Origin: an uncultured Saprospiraceae bacterium
Lineage (GTDB): Bacteria > Bacteroidota > Bacteroidia > Chitinophagales > Saprospiraceae
DNA length: 42,364 bases
Direction of reading: 5' to 3'
Assembly: GCA_937961455.1 (NCBI GenBank)
Contig: CALGNN010000134.1
Span: forward strand, 1-42,364
The translations under genes and the position numbers were made by a program. Positions 1 to 40,275 of the stretch are shown here, piece by piece. Each line of letters opens with the position of its first letter. Positions within the stretch are counted from its first letter, which is position 1. The notes under the pieces are model-generated. The model saw only the letters and a list, made by a program, of their open reading frames with translations, searched no databases and was not told where the DNA came from.

Positions 1-2466
1 AATAAAACTTTCGTTGATTAAATTATCAATAATGGGCTGCAAAATCATGGTTGGAATTGCGCTATCCATAGAAACGCTCTCTTCAATACTGATATGATAA
101 TTGAAAGCATCTTCCAATCTCATATTTTCCATATCCATGAAACATTCTAATAAATTAATTTCTTCTTTTAATTCACTAAAATGCTCTTTGCTATTATTAA
201 TATAATATCTAATTAGGTTAGAAAATTTTAATAAATATTTTTCAGCATTAATAATATTTTGTGTTTGAATATAGTATTGAATAGAACTAATGGAATTAAA
301 AACAAAATGCGGATTCATTTGTGCCTGAAGGGCTTGAAGTTTCAGATCAGTTATACGCTTTATAAAACTACTTTTAATTAAATGTTTTTCATGCTCTATG
401 TTTTTTGTAATTAAATTCAATAAATAGTAGCTTAACAAAATGGCAAAGACCATCAAGAACAAAAACCAGCTCTGCTTATAATACGGCTTTAATATCTTAA
501 AAGTAATTTCTTCATTGGGGAGATGGACATTATCATAAACATCAATTCCTCTAATTTCAAAAGTATATTCATTGGGATCTAAATCATAGAAATAAGTAAT
601 GATATCTTTAGTCATTTTCCATTCTTCCTGAATAGGTAACAATCGATATTCGTAATTTACTTTATCAAAACTTCCTAGATGATTTAAACTATGAGAAATA
701 CTAATATTATTTTCATCATAGGCTAATTCGTAATCATTTTTAATAGAAACATTATTATGATATAGCGCAATACTATTGAAGTCAAATACAGTGTCTACTA
801 ATTTTGTTTGGGAACCGGCCTTTGTCAACAACAAACCTTTACTTGTTGCGATATAAATTAATTCTCCAGATTTATAAATATCATTTCCACCTAAATCAGA
901 ATCGAAATGGATCTCTTCTAGTATTTCTAATTCTTCATTTAATATATAAACACCATCTACACAAACAATAAATACTTGTTGGTCAAATATTCGAATCTTA
1001 ACTATAGATTTCCTTGGCAAGAAACTACTTAATTTTTTCGATTTTATATTGAAAGAATAAAGGCCATTATCGTTTGTACCTAATAAATAATATCCACGTT
1101 CGAGTTCATTAATAGCAGTAATTTCACTGGGCACTCCAAGAGAAACAATTACACTGTCTAAATCATGTAGATATCTCAAACTATCTGAATGGGCGACCAA
1201 TAATTCTAATTGTTTATTCTTGTATAAACGATGTCCTTGAATATCTGCAATTAATTTACTAGCTGGTTTGTCTATACTTGACACTTCTAAAACCTCTCCA
1301 TCTGTACGGCTAATCGTATAAGACCTACTACTTTTATTATAAAAAATGTCTTTAAGTCGGTTTGTTATATTCGGATGCTTAATAAATTCTTTTTTCTTAA
1401 AATCGTATTCTAACAAATTATCTCTCGAGTTTTTAAAAAAGAATTTACCTGAATTAGTGAATTTGAAAAATCTATGGATATTTTTGTAGCTAGAGATGAA
1501 AATAGCATTTAATGTATCATCCTTTAAATGAAATAAATCACCCGTATTATTTGCTAATATTATTTGACCATCTAGTTCTCCTATTTCTTGAAAATCGATA
1601 TTGCTTTCTTTAGGATGACTAATAAATGAAAGACTTAGGTTTTGTTTTGAAATAAAAATAAGACCCTTACTTCTGGTACCTAACCATAAATTTTCATCTT
1701 TATCTATAAAAGGATTTAGTATTTCTGTATCAATTAAATCCATCATTAAACTAAAGTCGAAAGAAGCTTTTACATTTAGATTGGCGTCTAAGATAAATAG
1801 CGAAATTTCATTAAATAATAATACTTTACTATTTGAATTAACGAGTATAAAGTCTCTTCTTCCTTTGTAATTAAAATTACTTAATTCAATCTTTTTATAG
1901 TTGTTTTCGGTTTGACTAAATAATCTAATAAGCTCTTCTTTCTTAGTTTGTGTATATAAATAAAGCTGTTGATTGTCTGAAAAAATTCTCGTAGCACCAA
2001 AATCATTTTGTAAGTCAAACTTTTTTAAGGTATCAAACGCTACTAATGCATCTTCTTTTATTTTAGGAATTGTAGCTTCTTTCAGCAAGCATACACATTC
2101 TTCATCTAAGACTGCTATATCCAATACTTCCGCACTATTAATTATAGTTTCAATGATTTCACCTTCTTTAATAAGGTATGATCTGCGATTATAATCTATT
2201 GCACAAATCTTTCCTTTATCAGATACCACAGCTTTAATTATATCTCTATTGGGGAAATAATTTGTCCATCGATATCCATCAAATTTATTGAAACCTCTTT
2301 CCGTATAAGCCCAAATATTTCCACTTGAATCCTGCACCACTCCATAAACATAATTGGTGGATAGTCCATCATTTACATCAAAACTCTTGTACGGAAAATT
2401 CTGTGCAAATAGATTTACACTATGGAGCATAAATAGTAAAAGCCCTATTTTATAATTGCTTTTCAT
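1..2466 (-). CDS. LytS/YpdA-type sensor histidine kinase with propeller and Y_Y_Y sensor (partial)
   Basis: This is my own reading of the minus strand; the gene is cut off by the left window edge. It starts at the ATG at 2464-2466, giving MKSNYKIGLLLFMLHSVNLF, a signal peptide. Repeats such as QDSSGNIWAYTERGFNKFDG near the N-terminus and SGELIYIATSKGLLL later fit a two-component-regulator propeller. A Y_Y_Y-like domain follows near residues 600-640 (DLDPNEYTFEIRGID), then a transmembrane helix near 664-684 and the His_kinase (PF06580) core. AQMNPHFVFNS contains the likely phospho-acceptor His720. The window ends at the N-box, QPIIDNLINES, so most of the ATP-binding domain is missing. The start overlaps the stop of the upstream response regulator by 17 nt, so the two are co-transcribed. 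The propeller probably sits in the periplasm and senses an unknown ligand. Confidence 0.9.
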   Translation of the reverse strand, partial: MKSNYKIGLLLFMLHSVNLFAQNFPYKSFDVNDGLSTNYVYGVVQDSSGNIWAYTERGFNKFDGYRWTNYFPNRDIIKAVVSDKGKICAIDYNRRSYLIKEGEIIETIINSAEVLDIAVLDEECVCLLKEATIPKIKEDALVAFDTLKKFDLQNDFGATRIFSDNQQLYLYTQTKKEELIRLFSQTENNYKKIELSNFNYKGRRDFILVNSNSKVLLFNEISLFILDANLNVKASFDFSLMMDLIDTEILNPFIDKDENLWLGTRSKGLIFISKQNLSLSFISHPKESNIDFQEIGELDGQIILANNTGDLFHLKDDTLNAIFISSYKNIHRFFKFTNSGKFFFKNSRDNLLEYDFKKKEFIKHPNITNRLKDIFYNKSSRSYTISRTDGEVLEVSSIDKPASKLIADIQGHRLYKNKQLELLVAHSDSLRYLHDLDSVIVSLGVPSEITAINELERGYYLLGTNDNGLYSFNIKSKKLSSFLPRKSIVKIRIFDQQVFIVCVDGVYILNEELEILEEIHFDSDLGGNDIYKSGELIYIATSKGLLLTKAGSQTKLVDTVFDFNSIALYHNNVSIKNDYELAYDENNISISHSLNHLGSFDKVNYEYRLLPIQEEWKMTKDIITYFYDLDPNEYTFEIRGIDVYDNVHLPNEEITFKILKPYYKQSWFLFLMVFAILLSYYLLNLITKNIEHEKHLIKSSFIKRITDLKLQALQAQMNPHFVFNSISSIQYYIQTQNIINAEKYLLKFSNLIRYYINNSKEHFSELKEEINLLECFMDMENMRLEDAFNYHISIEESVSMDSAIPTMILQPIIDNLINESFI

Positions 2467-3208
2467 TCAAGCCTAAAACATTTGATTTGAATAATTCTTT
2501 CCTTCTTCTTGCTAAAGGGACTTGACTCATATCTTGCATGACAATAGCACCATCTTTAGAATATTTCTTAATGAAACTTACATTGATGAGATGTGACTTG
2601 TGACTAGAGAAAAAATCATAAGGACTGAGTAATTTTACAAATACACCAATGTTTGAATTACTGAGAATGCATTCTCCATTATTCACATAAACTTTAGTAT
2701 ACTTATTCCATCCTTCACATCTCACAATTTTTGATACTTCAATAAATTCTATATCAGTAGTTCCTGGTAAAACCACTCGAGAATTTTGAATAGGCAACTC
2801 TTGGATTTTGTTTTTCAATAATTGAAAAGAGTCCTTCATATTCTTAGCCTCAATTTTTTCAACTACCCTTGACAAAGCCTTATCCATATCTTCATAACTG
2901 ACAGGCTTTAATAAATAATCCACCGCTTTGGCTTTGATGGCTTCAATAGCATATTCTTGATAACCTGTCACAAATATTACTTCAAATGAAGGGTTAGTAA
3001 ATTTTTCCAACAAGTCAAAACCATTACCACCCGGCATAGATACATCTAAGAATATAAATTGTGGTTTATGTTTTCTTATTAATAGTTCTGCCTCTATAAT
3101 ATTACTAGCCTCTGCTAGTACTTCGATTTCAATGGAGCAGTATTTCAGGTTGTTTTTTAAAACTTCACGAATTTTAAATTCGTCATCAATGATTATGGTC
3201 GTGAGCAT
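2450..3208 (-). CDS. LytTR-family two-component response regulator
   Basis: This 252-residue protein has an N-terminal receiver domain: acidic residues in TTIIIDDE, phospho-acceptor Asp55 in FIFLDVSMPGGNGF, and the conserved Lys in YLLKP. A linker leads to a C-terminal LytTR DNA-binding domain (about 150-245) with FFSSHKSHLINVSFIKKY and VPLARRRKELF. I chose the ATG at 3208, because the longer frame needs a TTG at 3250 and adds 14 residues outside the receiver fold. It is the first gene of the operon with the kinase at 1-2466. It would bind direct repeats about two helical turns apart, and such a repeat lies at 3257-3289, just upstream of its own start and of the divergent genes. Confidence 0.93.
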   Translation of the reverse strand: MLTTIIIDDEFKIREVLKNNLKYCSIEIEVLAEASNIIEAELLIRKHKPQFIFLDVSMPGGNGFDLLEKFTNPSFEVIFVTGYQEYAIEAIKAKAVDYLLKPVSYEDMDKALSRVVEKIEAKNMKDSFQLLKNKIQELPIQNSRVVLPGTTDIEFIEVSKIVRCEGWNKYTKVYVNNGECILSNSNIGVFVKLLSPYDFFSSHKSHLINVSFIKKYSKDGAIVMQDMSQVPLARRRKELFKSNVLGLNEKQL

Positions 3209-3256
3209 GTTTGGAGTTGTTTCCTCAAAGTTCAAATAATATGAAAGCAAGTCCTA

Positions 3257-3289
3257 ACCGATAATCCACCAAATCCGACCGATAGTCCA
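3257..3289. promoter_or_regulatory. Candidate LytTR operator: 12-bp direct repeat with 21-bp period
   Basis: ACCGATAATCCA (3257-3268) recurs as ACCGATAGTCCA (3278-3289), 11 of 12 identical and starting 21 bp apart. LytTR regulators such as AgrA bind two roughly 9-bp direct repeats spaced about two helical turns. The site lies between a LytTR regulator gene and the divergent LuxR-domain gene, about 30 bp upstream of a TAnnTTTG element. The repeat is seen directly; its function is inferred. Confidence 0.55.
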
Positions 3290-3318
3290 ATATCAAAGCA
3301 AGAAATACGGGCTTCAAA

Positions 3319-3326
3319 TACTTTTG
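3319..3326 (+). promoter_or_regulatory. Bacteroidota -7 element for the LuxR-domain/giant-protein transcript
   Basis: TACTTTTG matches TAnnTTTG exactly and lies 20 nt before the ATG at 3347. I find no good -33 TTG, which fits an activator-dependent promoter served by the repeat at 3257-3289. Confidence 0.45.
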
Positions 3327-3346
3327 AATCAAAATTCACAAAAAAC

Positions 3347-3565
3347 ATGAATAAACTTAATGACCGCAAAGCGTGCCTAAGCAAACGCGAAACCGAAGTA
3401 CTTCGAGCCATTTCTTATGGACAAACGGTATTTGAAATTGCCAAAGAAATTTACTTATCCCATCATACCATAGTCAGCCATAAGAAAAATCTTATGCAGA
3501 AACTACATGCAAAGAATATCGCTCACCTCGTAAGAATTGCCTTTGAAGAAAAGCTATTGAATTAA
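3347..3565 (+). CDS. Stand-alone LuxR/GerE-type helix-turn-helix protein
   Basis: This 72-residue protein is almost only a LuxR-type DNA-binding domain. LSKRETEVLRAISYGQTVFE (11-30) is the first helices with the conserved E-T-E-V-L core. IAKEIYLSHHTIVSHKKNLM contains the recognition helix and is followed by KLHAKNIAHLVRIA. No receiver or ligand-binding domain precedes it, so it is either constitutively active or controlled by its level. It lies 32 nt upstream of the giant secreted-protein gene on the same strand with no terminator between, so it is probably co-transcribed. It is divergent from the LytTR regulator. A role in regulating the same locus is likely but not shown. Confidence 0.85.
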   Translation: MNKLNDRKACLSKRETEVLRAISYGQTVFEIAKEIYLSHHTIVSHKKNLMQKLHAKNIAHLVRIAFEEKLLN

Positions 3566-3597: not shown

Positions 3598-6500
3598 ATG
3601 AAATCCTTACAATCAATTGTTTCGATAAAAAATCTATTATCCCTCATCATACTTTGCTGTTTTGTCTTATCCCAGCAAGCACCGATACAAGCACAAAACC
3701 TACCGAACAATCTCCCATGGAGTCCCGACCCGACTTGTAAAGGGATTCTGACTAAAGGTATTGCCGTAGCGACTTGCGCCGTCTCAAATAATTTTGCGAT
3801 TGCTGATAGATATACAATGGGCATGATCAACATTCAAAATTCTGTTACAAACGCAGCAAGTTCAAGGACAATCGTTCCAGCGCAAATGTATCATCACCCT
3901 TCATGGCATGTTGACTCTATCGGCAACGTATTTGGCGTTGCTATCGATGGTGAAGGCCATTCTTATGTAACGGCATCAGCCAACTATCCGGCTGCATTTT
4001 TTGCCTCTGGAACTGCCATCATAAGATATGGCGATCTTGGCGGTGGAATTGATGATTTAGGGGCGGCAGGAACTATTTACAAAATTGACAAAATCACTGG
4101 ACAGGCATCCGTATTCCAACAGCTACCACAACAAGCTTTTAGTTTCACCCACACAGGATGTTATTCATCCGTAACGAAATCAAGAACTACAGGACCAGGC
4201 CTTGGTAATATCAGCTATGACAAAACACATAACTTGCTTTTCGTAAGTAATTTTGAAGATGGAAAAATCTATAGATTAGATGTCCTAGGGAATATCCTTG
4301 ATTGTTATGATCCAGATATCAATGACACAGGAGCGCTTGGTCTTCCGACAGATGAAGTACCTTTTGGTTTGTCCATCAATGAAGATGGGACAAAATTATT
4401 TTATGGGACTCTATTCAATGATGGGAAAATAAAATCCATAGATTTAAATCCTATTGATGGCTCATTCGTTGGAAGTGTTCTTTCTTCAAGTCCTTATCCA
4501 ACTATTGTAGGAGTTGAACTTTTTCATACGGATTTGCGTGCCCTCAATCCATTCGCAAGCTTGAATTCTGTTTCAGACTTGAGCTTTCTTCCAAATGGGA
4601 ATTTGATGGTTGGTGAAAGAAAGAGCTTCACGCCTAATTTTGCCAATGCTTGTAACCATGAGACTTCTTCATACGAGTTGTCAAAATCTGGTGCTTTATA
4701 TAATGTAGCTACAAATATTCAAGCATCCTATGATGCAACTACTCAATTCCAAGACGATCAGTATGGAGGGATCGCCTATTATATAAACCCTTCTAACAAT
4801 ATAGAATATGTACTGTCTTCATCTGATTTATTGAATAATGCAGGACCTCATGGTATAGCCGTGATCCCTAGATCTGCTACAGGAACTCCAAGGAATGTAA
4901 TGGGCGTAATCCCATATTCACCTTTGACTATTAGCAATGATGTAAAAGGTGTAGGCGGAGATATAGAAGTATTCAATGAATGTGACTGCACCATACCGGA
5001 GCCGATTTTTTGCACCTATAGCTGCACCAGTAATCCTTACTCTGCCATTGACAATAATGATGCAGGCTATGATCAATATTTAGAAACGGATGGTTCTAAA
5101 GTTTTGGTAGGTGTTACTCATGATTTGGTGGATAGACCTTATGTGCAAAAAATTGACAATTGTGGAAACGTGCTTGAAACTTGGATTTATTCTCCCAACT
5201 TGGATTATAGTAAGATTGGGAAAATAAAAATGACCAAGGATGTATTAAATAATCAATATGTTCTTGCGATAGAATTTCTGATCTCATCAGGTCAAACTGA
5301 CGTGCACTTAATGACTATTGATGCCTCTGCTTTCAATCTTAATACTTTAAGTGGATCTGTTCTTGATGCTCCTATTGAATCAGAAACCATAGAGCAAATT
5401 ATTGTCGATTCAGAAAATTCTTATGTATTGGCTATTAATCAAAGGGACCCTTCAGGAAACCATTCTGTTGTCGTCCTGAAATATACTTCTAGCTTGACGA
5501 ATAGCTGGATCAGAAGATTAAGTATTCCTGCATACACTGACATGAAAGCTTATGACTTGATGGAAAGCACTCAAATCTTAGGTGCTTTTAATAATTTTCG
5601 CACATCATATATTTTAGTAGGGAGTGTAGATCAGGATGCATACATCATTGGTTTGGATTGGTATTTAACACCTTCAAAAACTAACTTGATCGACATTGAC
5701 AATGATAATTCAACTGCAGAAAATATTCGGAGGATTGCTTTTAATGGAACCGATTTTATTGTAGCAGGAAATCATATAAATCCATCCACAAATGATCACC
5801 GTATTTGGACTTCAAATATTACAATTAATACAAATTATTCTGCTTCAAATAATTGGCTAAATATTCTTGATGAAAATGGCACTAAAAATGAAACAGTCAT
5901 AGATCTAGCTTTGGACCCAGATGGTTTTTTACTTACCGGTCAACTTGAAATTTCTCAAATTGGTTTGCCCACTGGAAGCACTGTTGATGATATAACTTAT
6001 GTGGGGCGCTTTGACTTTGCAGGTGTACAGACTTGGGCTAGAAAGTATGAAATCAAAGGGACCAAATTGTATTCGCTCAAAGTGAATACAATAGGGATCC
6101 ATGGACAAGGCGTATTACAAAATTGTTATCCTGATCCATCACCTCCAGGTTATCTTTGCAGTTCTGATTTATTTAGACTTCAATTAGATGGTAATGGAAT
6201 TTTAGAGGATTCAACTTGTATGATTGATTTTGATTTTACGAATACCATTGGGACACCTTTATATCTTACAGATACGAGCTCTTATACTCAGCTGCCAAAA
6301 AATATTGAAACGATTACTAATAAACCAGATCATGGGCCTGCAGATAAAACTTGTTGCTTTGAAGAACTTGACGCATGTAATATTGAGCTAAAAGCGAATA
6401 CGACAAACACAGACTCTTGCTGTATCGTATCACTAGATCTTACGAATTACAATACATCTATTTATTCCATAAAGATTGAATTGCAAACGCCAAATTTATT

Positions 6501-9072
6501 CTTTGATCAAATTTTGATTGATCCAAGTTTACAGTATTCTGCCAGCCCAATTGCTAACCCAACAACGGTCTATATCGATAAGCTACCCAGTCATCTACCA
6601 ATTGGGACTTTAACTGATTTTATCAATTTCTGTTATGGGAATACTGGCAGCTTAAATGTACTTAGCCAAAGTTTGAAAATTAGCTATTATGATGTTAGCG
6701 GAAATGAGCTGCATGAATGTTGTTCTTTTTTGAATACCAGTTGTGATGTGCCAACTACTGATGATGAGTGTCTAGATATTATTCCAATCAGTTTAGATTG
6801 TGATGATAATATTGCCCACAAGTTTACTTTCTGTTTTCAAGTCAAGAATAATACGAATCCTTCACAAGTATTGGATGCTGTTCGTTTGGATATTGCAGAC
6901 CCCAATGTTAATATAATTCCAACGGTGCACAATCTCGTTCCACCTATTAACTCAGGTATTTTATCGAGCATTCAATGTGTTGATATTTATGCATCTCCAT
7001 TGATTAGTTATCCATATGCTTTTCAACTAAGCGCTGCAGCTAAAGATACCTCTAACACCTTTTGTTGCAATGATAGTGAAACATTAAATTTGGTATTACC
7101 CAATTGCTGTGACCCATGTGTTAATGACTGGATAAGTTTATCAAATACCCCTTCCACCGATGCTTGTTGTTATAAGTTTGATTTTAATAACGAATGTGAC
7201 AACACCTTATCAAAAATTGTTTGCACACTTGTGCCAATTGGTGCTGATTTTGGCATGACAATTATTGATCCTGCTCATGCAGCAAATTGGTTTATCAATC
7301 CTGTCTCGCCTCAAAAAATTGAAATAGTTCCAAACACGACGCCTGTTAGCAAGGGCTTGTATCAAGACCTTCTACACATGTGTGTGAATAATCGATCAAA
7401 TACCACTAATCCAATTATGGTCTTTGAGTACATGATGAAAGATATTAATGGAATAGATTCTGTAGCCTGCAAAGAAAAAATTCAGCTATCCTGTGATAAT
7501 GAACAAGCTTGCTTAGAGGTAGTAAGAGATTCTGTTTTTTGTGATGACTCCGGAAACTACTTTTTAGATTTTTGCATAAAAAACACTTCTAACAATCCGT
7601 CCTTCACCATCGGTCAAATAGATATCAATAATTTATTGACTCCTTTATATGTTGCACCTACCACCTTTACAGGTCTTACTATTTTACCTGGAAGCACCTA
7701 TTGTAATGTCGTGCCAATCTATTCTACTAGTGGAAGTCCAGCACCTGGTGATATACTTAATCTTTCAATAGAAGCTCATTCTTCTGGACTAGATACATGT
7801 TGTGTGGATGGAGCATTTCTTGGCACCATACTTTTACCCTGTGAAGATTGTGATGATGTCATCATAATATCTGATGAGGACTTATCAGATAAGGTCTATC
7901 ATGCAAATGAACAAATACGTTCAGAGGTTACCATCAAGGAGCACACATCTATTGAATATATGTCAGGGAATACGATTGAATTGGCAGCTGGCTTCAGCAC
8001 AGAATTGCATTCAACGTTCACAGCAAATACGGAAGAATGTCAAACTACACAAACTGCTTTTTGGAATTGTGATACCGATTGTCCCATCACTATCGAAAAT
8101 CTTCCTTGTGGTCAGATTCGAGTCAATTGGGGTAATTGCGCTTATGAGTCATACAGGTTTAGAATTTTCTTTAGGGAAGGTACTTCGGGGCCGGCTCAGC
8201 GACAAACTTTCAACAACACTTATAGTGGCAGTTATGACATTCCAGGTGTCGTGCCAGGTAATACCTATCAGATAACCATTTATGAAAAAAGAAAATGGAA
8301 CTGTAGTTGGAATATGAGGGCTTATCTTGTAACCCTAACAGCAAGAATTTGTCAGAACACTTCTAGTTTTGAAATAAATAATTCCAATTTAGCACAAGCA
8401 GAAATTTGTGGCTTTGAACCTATAATTCTAGACGGTTCAAATTCTTTAAATACACATGCACATGAAATTTGCATGCAGGAAATCGATCAATTCGGAAGTG
8501 GCTTCGGACCTACAATTTGTCATAGTGCAAATGGTGGAGTTCCATCTTCATTTGATCTAAAGGCTTTTGCAAACGGAAATTCCTGGAATTTAATTGGAGG
8601 AAAAAGATATAAAGTCAGCTTAACTACCTACAATCCAAGCCTTGGAGTAAATCCAGTAACCAGCTTTAAATTCATTAAAATAAAGGAGGCCTTTGCTCAA
8701 ATTCATCCAGTTGAACTTAGCTCCGAAAATTTCCCTTGCTTGGTGGTTACGTTTAATACTCAAATTACCGAGTATCTATACGGTTGCAATCCAGCTAATC
8801 TAGGCTATGTCACTACAGGAACCAGCTGTGATCAAGGATACTTTGTTGAGATTGCAGAAGTCCTGCCAAATGCTAGTGGTGGATTTGATAATATTCCTGG
8901 AACGATATACAGTGATTGGGTAGATTTAAATAATAGTGTTCCTAGCTATTTAGACATTCAGGGAATTTATACCACGCATGGATTTCCTGCTTTCCAGCAA
9001 AACAAATCTTATAGGGTTAAACTAGCCGTTCGATTCCCTTGGCATTCGGACGAGTTTATCATACACTTTTGA
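3598..9072 (+). CDS. Giant secreted cysteine-rich protein with propeller-like, coathanger-like and FN3-like regions
   Basis: This 1824-residue exported protein has a signal peptide at 1-32 (hydrophobic LLSLIILCCFVLS, cleavage about QA/QN). Residues about 40-460 look like a beta-propeller of the NHL/SMP type (SNFEDGKIYRLDVLG, SINEDGTKLFYG, LSFLPNGNLMVGER), and 480-880 look like a second propeller (IIVDSENSYVLAINQRD, LDPDGFLLTGQ). From about 915 to 1400 there are repeated modules with at least seven Cys-Cys pairs (TCCFEE, DSCCIV, ECCSFL, FCCNDS, NCCDPC, DACCYK, TCCVDG). Residues 1417-1481 resemble the Bacteroidota 3-coathanger stack motif (SGNTIELAAGFSTELHSTF), and about 1487-1575 are FN3-like. 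The C-terminus ends at PWHSDEFIIHF without an obvious type IX sorting domain. It is probably extracellular or surface-located; function unknown. Confidence 0.88.
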   Translation: MKSLQSIVSIKNLLSLIILCCFVLSQQAPIQAQNLPNNLPWSPDPTCKGILTKGIAVATCAVSNNFAIADRYTMGMINIQNSVTNAASSRTIVPAQMYHHPSWHVDSIGNVFGVAIDGEGHSYVTASANYPAAFFASGTAIIRYGDLGGGIDDLGAAGTIYKIDKITGQASVFQQLPQQAFSFTHTGCYSSVTKSRTTGPGLGNISYDKTHNLLFVSNFEDGKIYRLDVLGNILDCYDPDINDTGALGLPTDEVPFGLSINEDGTKLFYGTLFNDGKIKSIDLNPIDGSFVGSVLSSSPYPTIVGVELFHTDLRALNPFASLNSVSDLSFLPNGNLMVGERKSFTPNFANACNHETSSYELSKSGALYNVATNIQASYDATTQFQDDQYGGIAYYINPSNNIEYVLSSSDLLNNAGPHGIAVIPRSATGTPRNVMGVIPYSPLTISNDVKGVGGDIEVFNECDCTIPEPIFCTYSCTSNPYSAIDNNDAGYDQYLETDGSKVLVGVTHDLVDRPYVQKIDNCGNVLETWIYSPNLDYSKIGKIKMTKDVLNNQYVLAIEFLISSGQTDVHLMTIDASAFNLNTLSGSVLDAPIESETIEQIIVDSENSYVLAINQRDPSGNHSVVVLKYTSSLTNSWIRRLSIPAYTDMKAYDLMESTQILGAFNNFRTSYILVGSVDQDAYIIGLDWYLTPSKTNLIDIDNDNSTAENIRRIAFNGTDFIVAGNHINPSTNDHRIWTSNITINTNYSASNNWLNILDENGTKNETVIDLALDPDGFLLTGQLEISQIGLPTGSTVDDITYVGRFDFAGVQTWARKYEIKGTKLYSLKVNTIGIHGQGVLQNCYPDPSPPGYLCSSDLFRLQLDGNGILEDSTCMIDFDFTNTIGTPLYLTDTSSYTQLPKNIETITNKPDHGPADKTCCFEELDACNIELKANTTNTDSCCIVSLDLTNYNTSIYSIKIELQTPNLFFDQILIDPSLQYSASPIANPTTVYIDKLPSHLPIGTLTDFINFCYGNTGSLNVLSQSLKISYYDVSGNELHECCSFLNTSCDVPTTDDECLDIIPISLDCDDNIAHKFTFCFQVKNNTNPSQVLDAVRLDIADPNVNIIPTVHNLVPPINSGILSSIQCVDIYASPLISYPYAFQLSAAAKDTSNTFCCNDSETLNLVLPNCCDPCVNDWISLSNTPSTDACCYKFDFNNECDNTLSKIVCTLVPIGADFGMTIIDPAHAANWFINPVSPQKIEIVPNTTPVSKGLYQDLLHMCVNNRSNTTNPIMVFEYMMKDINGIDSVACKEKIQLSCDNEQACLEVVRDSVFCDDSGNYFLDFCIKNTSNNPSFTIGQIDINNLLTPLYVAPTTFTGLTILPGSTYCNVVPIYSTSGSPAPGDILNLSIEAHSSGLDTCCVDGAFLGTILLPCEDCDDVIIISDEDLSDKVYHANEQIRSEVTIKEHTSIEYMSGNTIELAAGFSTELHSTFTANTEECQTTQTAFWNCDTDCPITIENLPCGQIRVNWGNCAYESYRFRIFFREGTSGPAQRQTFNNTYSGSYDIPGVVPGNTYQITIYEKRKWNCSWNMRAYLVTLTARICQNTSSFEINNSNLAQAEICGFEPIILDGSNSLNTHAHEICMQEIDQFGSGFGPTICHSANGGVPSSFDLKAFANGNSWNLIGGKRYKVSLTTYNPSLGVNPVTSFKFIKIKEAFAQIHPVELSSENFPCLVVTFNTQITEYLYGCNPANLGYVTTGTSCDQGYFVEIAEVLPNASGGFDNIPGTIYSDWVDLNNSVPSYLDIQGIYTTHGFPAFQQNKSYRVKLAVRFPWHSDEFIIHF

Positions 9073-9213: not shown

Positions 9214-10128
9214 ATGAGTTTAGTTGTAGTTGGTACCGTAGCCTTTGATGGCGTTGAAACCCCTTTTGCTAAGAGAGATAAAATAACAGGTGGAGCAGCC
9301 TATTATACTTCTTGGGCAGCTTCTTTTTTTACAGATACCATTAGATTGGTTTCTATTGTTGGAGGAGATTATCCACAAGAAGAAATTGATGCCATGAAAG
9401 AACGTGGAATCGATACCAGTGGTTTAGAAATTAAGGAAGACGGCCTTACCTTTTTCTGGGCTGGGAAATATCTTGATAATATGAATGAGAGGGAAACCCT
9501 AGTCACAGACTTAAATGTCTTGGATGATTTCAACCCAGTGCTTCCGGACCATTACAAAGACAGTCAATATATCATGCTGGGAAATCTTACACCAGATATC
9601 CAAATGCAAGTCATTGACCAATTAACTACGGATCCAAAACTAATAGCATTGGACACCATGAACTTCTGGATGGATATCGCTATGGATCGATTAAAAGAAG
9701 TAATTGCTAAGGTCGATTTATTGACCATCAATGATGAAGAAGCAAGACAACTATCTGGAGAATATTCTTTAGTTAAAGCTGCTGAGGTCATTCACAAAAT
9801 GGGACCAAAATATCTTGTCATTAAGAAAGGAGAACATGGTGCTTTACTATTCCATGAAAATAAAATATTTTTTGCTCCTGCAGTGCCTTTAGCCAATGTA
9901 GCAGATCCAACTGGAGCTGGGGACAGCTTTGCTGGTGGAATGATGGGTTATCTTGCCAAGACTGATGACCTAAGTTTTGAAAACATGAAAAGAGCCATCA
10001 TCTTCGGATCAGCAATGGCAAGTTTTTGTGTAGAAGATTTTAGTATTGGTAAAATCAAGCAATTGAGTGATGAAGATGTAACGGTTAGAGCCACCATCTT
10101 TAAAGATCTTGTAGATTTTAATTTATAA
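9214..10128 (+). CDS. PfkB-family sugar/nucleoside kinase
   Basis: This 304-residue cytoplasmic kinase of the ribokinase/PfkB family transfers phosphate from ATP to a sugar or nucleoside hydroxyl. The N-terminal substrate-binding strand and GG motif are present (MSLVVVGTVAFDGVETPFAK, then TGGAAYYTSWAA). The C-terminal signature is DPTGAGDSFAGG, with catalytic base Asp237 and an anion hole formed by GAGD. LLTINDEEARQLSG is the usual preceding segment. The substrate cannot be read from sequence; ribokinase-like and adenosine-kinase-like activities are both possible. It has its own promoter and a gap of about 90 nt to metZ, so it is probably expressed alone or with metZ. Confidence 0.88.
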   Translation: MSLVVVGTVAFDGVETPFAKRDKITGGAAYYTSWAASFFTDTIRLVSIVGGDYPQEEIDAMKERGIDTSGLEIKEDGLTFFWAGKYLDNMNERETLVTDLNVLDDFNPVLPDHYKDSQYIMLGNLTPDIQMQVIDQLTTDPKLIALDTMNFWMDIAMDRLKEVIAKVDLLTINDEEARQLSGEYSLVKAAEVIHKMGPKYLVIKKGEHGALLFHENKIFFAPAVPLANVADPTGAGDSFAGGMMGYLAKTDDLSFENMKRAIIFGSAMASFCVEDFSIGKIKQLSDEDVTVRATIFKDLVDFNL

Positions 10129-10221
10129 AACAATCAAGTTTTAATGGATGCTTCATGAGGGAGGAATTAAGCCCTTCACTTTGATTAAGCATTGCTAAAT
10201 TTAAGCCTAATCTATTTTCTT

Positions 10222-11394
10222 ATGGCTGAAAAGAAATTTGAAACCAATGCGATCAGGACGCAATTAGATCGAACTAAATATTCCGAGCACGCTAGTCCAA
10301 TGTTTCTTACTTCAAGTTTTATTTTTGAAGATGCCGAAGAAATGCGCGCCTCTTTCAATGAAGAGAAGGATCGTAATATTTATAGCCGATTTTCTAATCC
10401 AAATAACACGGAGTTTGTTGATAAGGTTTGTCAAATGGAAGAGGCCGAAAGCGGAGTTGCATTTGCCAGCGGTATGTCAGCCGTATTCTCCACTTTTGCC
10501 GCTTTATTAGATGCAGGTGATCATATCGTTTCTTGCAGTTCTGTTTTTGGTTCTACGCATGGTTTATTCACAAAAGTATTTCCCAAGTGGAATATAAGCA
10601 CGAGCTATTTTGACATCCACGATACGGAAAGTATTGAAGCTTTAATTCAGCCTAAGACCAAAATACTCTATGCTGAATCTCCAACAAATCCTGGTGTAGA
10701 CATTATTGATCTTGAACTCCTTGGTAGTATTGCTGAAAAGCACCAGCTTATTTTAATTATAGATAATTGCTTTGCTACACCTTACATTCAGCAACCCATC
10801 AAATTCGGTGCACATCTAGTGATTCATTCGGCAACGAAATTGATGGATGGTCAAGGAAGAGTCTTGGGTGGTGTAACAGTGGGCACATCTGATTTAATTA
10901 GAAAAATCTTTTTATTCAGCAGAACTACTGGACCTGCATTATCTGCATTTAATGCTTGGATGCTATCCAAGAGTTTAGAAACTCTAGCTGTGAGACTTGA
11001 GAGGCATTGCGCAAACGCATTATTAGTAGCACAATTTCTAGAAAAACAATCTCAAGTGAATTGGGTTAAGTATCCCTTCCTTCCTTCACATCCACAATAT
11101 GAAATTGCCAAAAAACAAATGAAATTGGGTGGCAATATTGTGGCTTTCGAAATCGATGGCGGAATTGAATCGGGAAGAAATTTTCTCAATGCAATAGAAC
11201 TCTGTTCTTTATCTGCAAATCTTGGAGACACTAGAACGATTGTGACACATCCTGCTTCTACTACGCATCATTCCTTATCACAGGAAGATCGAATCAAGGT
11301 TAATATTACTGATGGTCTAGTTAGAATATCAGTTGGATTGGAACATGTTGATGATATAATTGAAGATATTGAAAAAGCCTTTTTAGCTGTGTAG
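10222..11394 (+). CDS. metZ: O-succinylhomoserine sulfhydrylase (Cys/Met metabolism PLP enzyme)
   Basis: This 390-residue enzyme belongs to the cystathionine gamma-synthase family and makes homocysteine from O-succinylhomoserine (or O-acetylhomoserine) and sulfide in methionine synthesis. IYSRFSNPN is the phosphate/substrate loop, and FASGMSAVFSTF binds PLP. The PLP-binding lysine is Lys206 in HSATKLMDGQGRVLGG; the DGQGRVLGG stretch is typical of MetZ rather than MetB or MetC. THPASTTHHSLS near the C-terminus is also conserved. I chose the ATG at 10222; the longer frame begins with TTG at 10192 and adds ten hydrophobic residues not expected in this cytosolic enzyme. The acyl donor is assigned from family resemblance only. 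Confidence 0.87.
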   Translation: MAEKKFETNAIRTQLDRTKYSEHASPMFLTSSFIFEDAEEMRASFNEEKDRNIYSRFSNPNNTEFVDKVCQMEEAESGVAFASGMSAVFSTFAALLDAGDHIVSCSSVFGSTHGLFTKVFPKWNISTSYFDIHDTESIEALIQPKTKILYAESPTNPGVDIIDLELLGSIAEKHQLILIIDNCFATPYIQQPIKFGAHLVIHSATKLMDGQGRVLGGVTVGTSDLIRKIFLFSRTTGPALSAFNAWMLSKSLETLAVRLERHCANALLVAQFLEKQSQVNWVKYPFLPSHPQYEIAKKQMKLGGNIVAFEIDGGIESGRNFLNAIELCSLSANLGDTRTIVTHPASTTHHSLSQEDRIKVNITDGLVRISVGLEHVDDIIEDIEKAFLAV

Positions 11395-39222: not shown

Positions 39223-40275
39223 TCAAATAGTAATTCGAATTCCAATATTGTGGGTTCCATTAAATGGTTGAGTAAAACGGTAAGCATAGTCGATACCTAA
39301 TCTGTTTGAACTTCCCTTCTTAAGTGGAATCTCTGCAGAAGCACCAGCTGACACACCCGTATAGACATTTCTATCTAAAGCTGTTAGGCTTTGTCCAATA
39401 TCATATCTATATCCACCTCTTAGCATGAATATTTCATTAAAAGCATATTCGACACCAGCGCTAATTTGATCTCTAGAAAAAGAATTGGAAGTAAAGTTAC
39501 CTGCTACAGTTAGTCTATTTTTCATACCAATAAGAAAATCATATGAAATTCCAATATTCAATAGAGAAGGTAACTCAAATCTATTAGCTTCAGTTGAGAC
39601 AGCCAATCCATTATCTTGTGGCAATTCCTGAGAATTTACAATAAAAGATAAACCAGGTCCTCTATACTGCATTGGAGATCCAACATTTCTTAGTGAGATA
39701 CCAAATTTAAAATTATCATTCTCTCCAGATACATATTGAATTCCAGCATCTACACCAAAGCCAAAGGCTTTGATATCAGCTGTTGATTCTGAAATTGCTC
39801 TAAATAATACTCCAACAGAAATCTTGTTTTCAAAAATATGAGAATAAGCAATTCCTATATTGAAAAAATTTGGTGAAAAAGTGGCACCCGTTCCTCCAGG
39901 AATATCTGTGGTAGTCACAGGAATATCGCCAAAATCAACTGCCATTAATGACAAACCAAGTGTTCCATTTTCGCCCATTCGCTGTGCAACACCAACTGAA
40001 TTAAGTAGGATACCTGTTCCTTCAAAAAGTCGGGCATTACCAATTAAAACTTCCGTTTTATTAATTCTACTTAAGCCAGCTACATTTAATCTCATGGCTT
40101 CAACTCCTTTAACAAAAGAAGTATTCAATGTATGAAGACCAGCACTTCGTGCCCATGGGTTCAATAGCAACTCATAGGCTCCTGCTTCCCCTTGTCTATC
40201 TGGATTTCCAGCTGTTATCTGCCCAATGTTGGCAACAGCAAAAATCAATAAAAAAACTATTTTGATATTTTTCAT
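39223..40275 (-). CDS. PorV/PorQ-family outer-membrane beta-barrel protein
   Basis: This 350-residue protein has a signal peptide (MKNIKIVFLLIFAVANIGQITA). The family start pattern is GAYELLLNPWARSAGLHTLN, then VEAMRLNVAGLSRINKTEVL. The barrel ends FTQPFNGTHNIGIRITI. I chose the ATG at 40275; a longer frame to 40368 adds 31 residues that overlap the end of the upstream surface-protein gene and delays the signal peptide. PorV of the type IX system binds the C-terminal domains of cargo and delivers them to the PorU sortase. Here the upstream partner is a large surface protein rather than PorU, so a dedicated shuttle is possible. True PorV function is inferred. Confidence 0.72.
   Translation of the reverse strand: MKNIKIVFLLIFAVANIGQITAGNPDRQGEAGAYELLLNPWARSAGLHTLNTSFVKGVEAMRLNVAGLSRINKTEVLIGNARLFEGTGILLNSVGVAQRMGENGTLGLSLMAVDFGDIPVTTTDIPGGTGATFSPNFFNIGIAYSHIFENKISVGVLFRAISESTADIKAFGFGVDAGIQYVSGENDNFKFGISLRNVGSPMQYRGPGLSFIVNSQELPQDNGLAVSTEANRFELPSLLNIGISYDFLIGMKNRLTVAGNFTSNSFSRDQISAGVEYAFNEIFMLRGGYRYDIGQSLTALDRNVYTGVSAGASAEIPLKKGSSNRLGIDYAYRFTQPFNGTHNIGIRITI

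Follow-up and report, generated by a model that had tools for sequence, protein, structure and literature searches.

The LytTR regulators AgrA and ComE bind upstream of a promoter, at two direct repeats spaced by about two helical turns. Described more generally, in the excerpts of PMC4847170, LytTR sites are two repeats of 9 to 11 nt that are 11 to 13 nt apart, and the E. coli BtsR (YehT) site at yjiY (btsT) is represented by an oligonucleotide of the form ACCGCTTA-N13-ACCACTCA. For the S. mutans regulators HdrR and BrsR, the excerpted text of PMC6193735 gives the sites ACCTCTTAG-12-ACCACTTAA and ACCACTTAT-12-ACCGCTTAT, which have a period of 21, lie just upstream of the core promoter, and are activating and autoregulatory. 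The same excerpts report Bacteroides operons resembling the LytTR Regulatory Systems (LRS), where 11-bp direct repeats lie 11 bp apart and 11 bp upstream of the promoter (PMC6193735). These Bacteroides repeats aside, the titles and abstract openings found in the open-access literature searched hold no definition of such an operator for a LytTR regulator of Bacteroidota.

The locus analyzed here lies in a stretch of 42,364 nucleotides (the window) from the 4.6-Mb draft genome of an uncultured Saprospiraceae bacterium. Its promoter type and genes, too, suggest a member of the Bacteroidota. On its plus strand, the words ACCGATAATCCA (positions 3257 to 3268) and ACCGATAGTCCA (positions 3278 to 3289) are identical at 11 of 12 bases and start 21 bp apart; an earlier note on this DNA had reported a 12-bp direct repeat with one mismatch and a 21-bp period, and its letters and coordinates are confirmed. 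Expressed through its 9-nt core, ACCGATARt, the repeat starts at 3257 and 3278 with 12 nt in between (period 21), and both its length and its separation fall within the ranges described for LytTR operators. A -7 element of the Bacteroidota type, TACTTTTG, is located 29 bp after the second half-site, at 3319 to 3326 of the plus strand. We propose that positions 3257 to 3289 are very probably the operator of the neighboring LytTR regulator and that 3257 to 3326 form one composite promoter, in which two ACCGWTnnTCY half-sites 21 bp apart are followed, after 29 bp, by TACTTTTG. This sequence-based reading is preferred because the word, the spacing, and the promoter distance recur beside relatives of the regulator in other bacteria.

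The presumed binder is encoded next to the repeat, on the minus strand (2450 to 3208), as a response regulator of 252 amino acids with a receiver (Response_reg) and a LytTR domain, the latter matching PF04397 with an E value of 1.4e-10, above the cut-off. A solved-structure search gave receiver-domain matches only, among the best 60 of 191. The gene most likely starts at the ATG at 3208, which places the repeat 49 bp upstream of it and, as had been claimed, within the divergent region of the LytTR gene, a 138-bp interval (3209 to 3346) between the LytTR and LuxR-type starts. A sensor kinase with His_kinase and Reg_prop domains, the presumed partner of the regulator, occupies positions 1 to 2466 of the minus strand and runs off the window. 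On the plus strand, the first gene behind the promoter (3347 to 3565) encodes a stand-alone GerE/LuxR protein of 72 amino acids, and its ATG lies 90 bp from the start of the site. A gap of 32 bp separates this gene from the main presumed target, which codes for a giant secreted-looking protein of 1,824 amino acids (3598 to 9072, plus strand) with a signal-peptide-like start and a GCX_COOH (3-coathanger stack) domain. The proposal of a giant secreted-protein operon stands for these two closely spaced genes but extends no further, as the next open reading frame (ORF), of the PfkB family, starts at 9214.

Taken alone, the repeat is moderately unusual and suggestive of an operator without being decisive, given the frequency of comparable repeats in shuffled and natural DNA. 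Among 5,000 dinucleotide shuffles of the 138-bp region, 11 reach 11 of 12 identical bases at a period of 20 to 22, and 193 do so at any period from 10 to 60. Such a repeat at a period of 20 to 22 also occurs in 12 of 2,034 tiles of 138 bp cut from the bacterium's own DNA (the window plus 26 loci of the same genome). The window contains no second exact copy pair of the operator word and no second operator copy facing the LytTR gene; a weak pair (17/24) at 39898, inside an ORF, is regarded as background. A broad LytTR half-site consensus, [TA][AC][CA]GTTN[AG][TG], is matched at 8 of 9 positions by each half-site and equally well at three more places in the same 138 bp. Another direct repeat, AATATSAAAGCAAG, lies on both sides of the operator, at 3238 to 3251 and 3289 to 3302 (13 of 14 bases identical, 51 bp apart), and 1 of 1,000 mononucleotide shuffles gives an equally good pair at any spacing. 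Since the exact word is absent from all fetched loci except those that overlap the window, we place this second repeat outside the conserved architecture.

Close relatives of the window regulator (E <= 1e-60, 39 to 51% identical) are encoded in 32 of the 397 other genomes drawn from the family. Named genomes, when scanned, yielded three relatives, at 29 to 39%. Over 34 relatives, identity to the window regulator averages 51% for the LytTR domain and 49% for the receiver. In a tree of 45 LytTR proteins, 11 of which come from the window's own genome, the window regulator is the only one of that genome to fall into the clade with the 32 relatives (support 100/95); there it is nearest, at weak support (87/77), to the proteins of loci L148 and L216.

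The earlier note had called for a comparison of the divergent region across close relatives, and the relatives compared are of other genera, with none of the 100 searched belonging to the same genus. The comparison covered 33 loci around LytTR relatives (L148 and L214 to L245), two of them contributed by one genome (G363); several share a genus, which limits their independence. The score for non-coding DNA was based on the 12-base word of the window itself, at a threshold of at least 17 of 24, such that nothing was learned from the target loci. At period 21, 26 non-coding sites were detected in 20 of the 33 loci, versus 0 to 8 sites at each of the remaining nineteen periods in the range 13 to 32; 13 loci have no site at the threshold used. 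A reordered operator word produced one site in the 33 loci, while 100 permuted words produced a mean of 0.97 and a maximum of 6. For coding DNA of the same loci, the six sites at period 21 are inside the range of 1 to 8 seen at other periods. The non-coding count excludes a 7-bp satellite in L227 (about 9990 to 10320, with ATAATCC/ATAATTC-like units), which imitates the operator word at multiples of 7, thereby inflating the period-21 count; masking it reduced the sites from 32 to 26 and left the loci at 20. At the same threshold, no period-21 site was present in the non-coding DNA of 26 other own-genome loci, which comprise fifteen other LytTR places and other stand-alone LuxR-type ORFs. Thus, recurrence beside relatives of the regulator and before the giant genes that adjoin them, together with absence beside the fifteen other LytTR places, argues strongly for the LytTR operator that the earlier note had suggested. 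Over 34 tabulated sites (the 26 just described, the window, and seven pair matches), the half-site consensus is ACCGWTnnTCY; in both half-sites, the second C and the position-6 T never vary.

Exact pairs were found in 9 of the 33 genomes that have a close regulator relative and in 10 of the 365 that lack one (p = 3.2e-6); leaving out the window genome gives 8 of 32 for the former (p = 1.8e-5). Family-wide, the excess of exact pairs over the reversed control is slight (23 versus 16). Twelve of the 23 exact matches are among the 34 sites used, and 11 were left out (G148, G159, G236:C113:21345, G229, G348:C112, G004:C74, G129, G427, G385:C334, G408, and G354), mostly for lying inside ORFs, being repeat-like, or having unrelated gene neighbors; for G236:C113:21345, no such reason was given. 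Among 13 pair matches left out by gene context, one (G004:C74) has a -7 element of at least 5 of 6 bases at offset 29 or 30. With up to three mismatches, the composite pattern has matches in 124 of 398 genomes, mostly background, and a hand count over the 33 genomes with a close regulator relative gave 37 matches versus 10 for the reversed pattern.

The housekeeping promoter of Bacteroidota carries the -7 element TANNTTTG, refined to TAHHTTTG, and, in the excerpts of PMC6847099, the -33 motif is described as much less evident in Flavobacterium johnsoniae promoters. The window's TACTTTTG conforms to this -7 element, in line with the earlier report of an exact match about 30 bp downstream of the repeat. 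Inspection by eye of the plus strand about 20 bp upstream of TACTTTTG revealed no -33 element TTTG. The earlier note had read this absence as pointing to an activator-dependent promoter; the absence holds, but it is a weak sign of activator dependence, given how much less evident the -33 motif is in F. johnsoniae promoters (PMC6847099). A sigma-70 promoter scan gave a single match, within the LuxR ORF, and fewer matches than in shuffles.

The distance from operator to -7 element was assessed over the 26 sites, which exclude the window and were not selected by their downstream DNA. TAnnTTTG, at 5 of 6 bases or better, is found 29 or 30 bp after half-site 2 at 14 of the 26 sites (8 sites at offset 29, 6 at offset 30, and at most 3 at any other offset); the other 12 are without a 5-of-6 element at these two offsets. 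TAnnTTT occurs at offset 29 or 30 in 8 of the 26 and at most once at any other listed offset, and a T occupies offset 34 in 25. In the enlarged set of 34, the counts are 11 and 8 at offsets 29 and 30, and the T at offset 34 is present in 33; we regard the 26-site count as cleaner because the seven extra pair matches were chosen after their neighbors were seen. The operator, which lies just upstream of the core promoter at 14 of the 26 sites as it does in the window, keeps a fixed distance from the -7 element and makes one unit with it, as would be predicted if the activator contacts polymerase. Word, period, offset, orientation, and co-occurrence with the regulator are all observed directly.

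Composite sites precede all seven of the giant genes tested that adjoin a LytTR relative (those of the window [G000], G051, G271, G284, G199, G106, and G236), and at each of them 0 of 200 shuffles were equally good. The test omits G027 C582, which sits at a contig edge, G029 C90 in L245, whose start falls beyond the stretch, and weaker giant-protein matches. Nine giant homologues located elsewhere lack a composite site (at best 17/24, equaled by 3 of 200 shuffles). Two giant homologues of G029 have no site; this genome has a regulator relative, but they are not beside it. The giant protein of G051 is 39% similar to that of the window, and those of the other five are 21 to 26% similar, over parts. 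In G051, the kinase-LytTR genes and the giant gene point away from each other, and TACATTTG comes 29 bp after the site. From the start of the site to the giant ATG, the distance is 92 bp in G051, 93 in G271, 98 in G284, and 95 in G236, as well as 153 in G199 and 165 in G106. Because the window's 90 bp run to the LuxR ATG and the 92 to 98 bp of four relatives run to the giant ATG, the LuxR ORF looks like an insertion that separates the giant gene from its promoter. A tally over 40 sites, for six of which the search pattern included the -7 element, and over ORFs of at least 45 amino acids places the first ATG 80 to 99 bp from the site start in 17 cases, elsewhere within 420 bp in another 17, and nowhere in 6. 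The 17 close genes code for kinases, LytTR regulators, secreted-looking proteins or lipoproteins, stand-alone GerE or LytTR-like proteins, and one membrane-like protein. Positive autoregulation of the kinase and LytTR genes is likely in relatives, since the composite site precedes these genes there too.

Within the window's own genome, a composite search that tolerates three mismatches finds the window (0 mismatches), C23:7372 (1), and C21 (3, left as doubtful), and the reversed control matches nothing. At C23:7372, 92 bp separate the start of the site from the ATG of a secreted-looking protein of 947 amino acids with an SdrD_B-like domain, so that at least this further promoter probably belongs to the same regulon. 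The search for further own-genome pairs, which the earlier note had proposed, has thereby yielded one more site with the full architecture, again before a gene for a secreted-looking protein. With the offset set to 30, the composite pattern matches C28 only, upstream of paralogous kinase-LytTR genes. There are six own-genome pair matches, of which C54, C76, and C140 were not used; the C54 and C76 pairs are without a 5-of-6 -7 element. In the C28 region (L159, 12248 to 17440), one gene run holds a kinase, two LytTR regulators, an ORF of 97 amino acids, and a stand-alone LuxR-type ORF.

It is possible, as a tentative extension, that the LytTR promoter feeds a stand-alone DNA-binding protein and so sets up a two-step relay besides the giant surface protein. 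A GerE/LuxR single-domain protein lies behind the site in the window and in G322, and the two are 47.5% identical over 61 residues. Stand-alone LytTR-like proteins lie behind the site in G038 (LytTR-like by eye) and in G293, where the search pattern for the site included the -7 element. As the first ORF behind such an operator, L234 (5061 to 5444) and L330 (325 to 717) encode stand-alone LytTR-like proteins of 127 and 130 amino acids. The window's genome has 28 LuxR/GerE-type matches, twenty of them in open frames of less than 160 amino acids, and at least six small LuxR-type ORFs besides that of the window lie directly upstream of genes with signal-peptide-like starts (examples of such small ORFs in this genome are L172, 4267 to 4482; L173, 5284 to 5517; L174, 1177 to 1401; L175, 3979 to 4540; L160, 4511 to 4744; and L183, 4419 to 4664). 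LuxR/GerE-type matches number 37 in G041, 24 in G049, and 18 in G019, some in open frames of more than 1,000 amino acids. An apparently broken secreted-protein gene follows the operator and the LuxR-type ORF in G322 (L227, about 3620 to 4450). If the relay exists, LytTR-fed single-domain proteins could be a general layering of control over large secreted proteins in this lineage.

Several other readings of the repeat can be weighed against these data. The operator may be read mainly by the LytTR paralogue of C28, which is 43% identical to the window regulator, or by both proteins, an unlikely arrangement in our view. Upstream of the C28 kinase-LytTR operon lies a related pair, ACCGTTGATG...ACCGTTGGTT, with two mismatches and a -7-like TTATTTTG at offset 30, and the LytTR protein of this operon branches just outside the clade of the window regulator; however, it is the window regulator that adjoins the site and whose clade the sites follow, and the C28 site is the weaker match. 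We consider it very improbable that the repeat serves the minus-strand LytTR gene, through autoregulation or repression, and is no activator site for the plus-strand genes. The distance of 49 bp to the LytTR start and the sites that relatives carry before their own kinase or LytTR genes would fit such a role, but the site points toward a plus-strand -7 element at a fixed distance, in the orientation it has before target genes elsewhere.

Binding by the LuxR-type protein itself is in our view a remote prospect: a LuxR-type ORF is the first gene behind the repeat and likewise follows such a site in G322, yet the sites in G051 and G271 have no LuxR ORF behind them, and own-genome loci with other LuxR ORFs have no site at the same threshold. 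Chance is hardly credible as the source of the repeat, since, despite the shuffles that reach an equally good repeat at some spacing from 10 to 60, the word, period, offset, and gene context recur in other genera.

If the repeat is the operator of the adjoining LytTR regulator, as we favor, a signal read by the Reg_prop sensor kinase would lead to phosphorylation of the regulator, and two LytTR domains would occupy the half-sites, both on the same helical face. Contact between LytTR and RNA polymerase may then replace the -33 element and aid polymerase at TACTTTTG, switching on transcription of the LuxR-type ORF and the giant protein. We infer binding, dependence on phosphorylation, and activation as opposed to repression from LytTR biology. 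The layout also supplies a predictive grammar, in which ACCGWTnnTCY occurs twice at period 21 and is followed, after 29 to 30 bp, by TAnnTTTG. This grammar serves a Reg_prop kinase/LytTR pair that recurs across a Bacteroidota family and is repeatedly linked to giant secreted proteins, and an unannotated two-component system thereby gains named candidate target promoters and a testable output.

Among described systems, AgrA and ComE use other words and promoters than those of the window. BtsR is the best NCBIfam match of the window regulator, and the E. coli BtsR site, as excerpted, resembles the window's ACCGATAA-N13-ACCGATAG in its period of 21 and its ACC(G/A)nTnA core. Nevertheless, the regulator is BtsR-like and not BtsR, because its score of 121.5 bits is below the curated cut-off of 246 for NF008677; the systems also differ in having a Reg_prop kinase versus the BtsS receptor and secreted proteins versus a transporter as targets, and in the Bacteroidota -7 element of the window. 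The excerpted HdrR and BrsR sites of S. mutans share the period of 21 and differ in promoter class. LRS, in the text excerpted, pair a regulator with a membrane inhibitor protein, whereas the window has a receiver-domain regulator adjoining a histidine kinase gene, which rules out assignment to LRS. The Bacteroides LRS-like operons come from the same phylum and also have direct repeats but, as far as the excerpts go, differ by their period of 22, their transmembrane regulators, and their operon. Judged by its letters and spacing, the window site belongs to a known kind of LytTR site and differs in promoter type, kinase, and targets.
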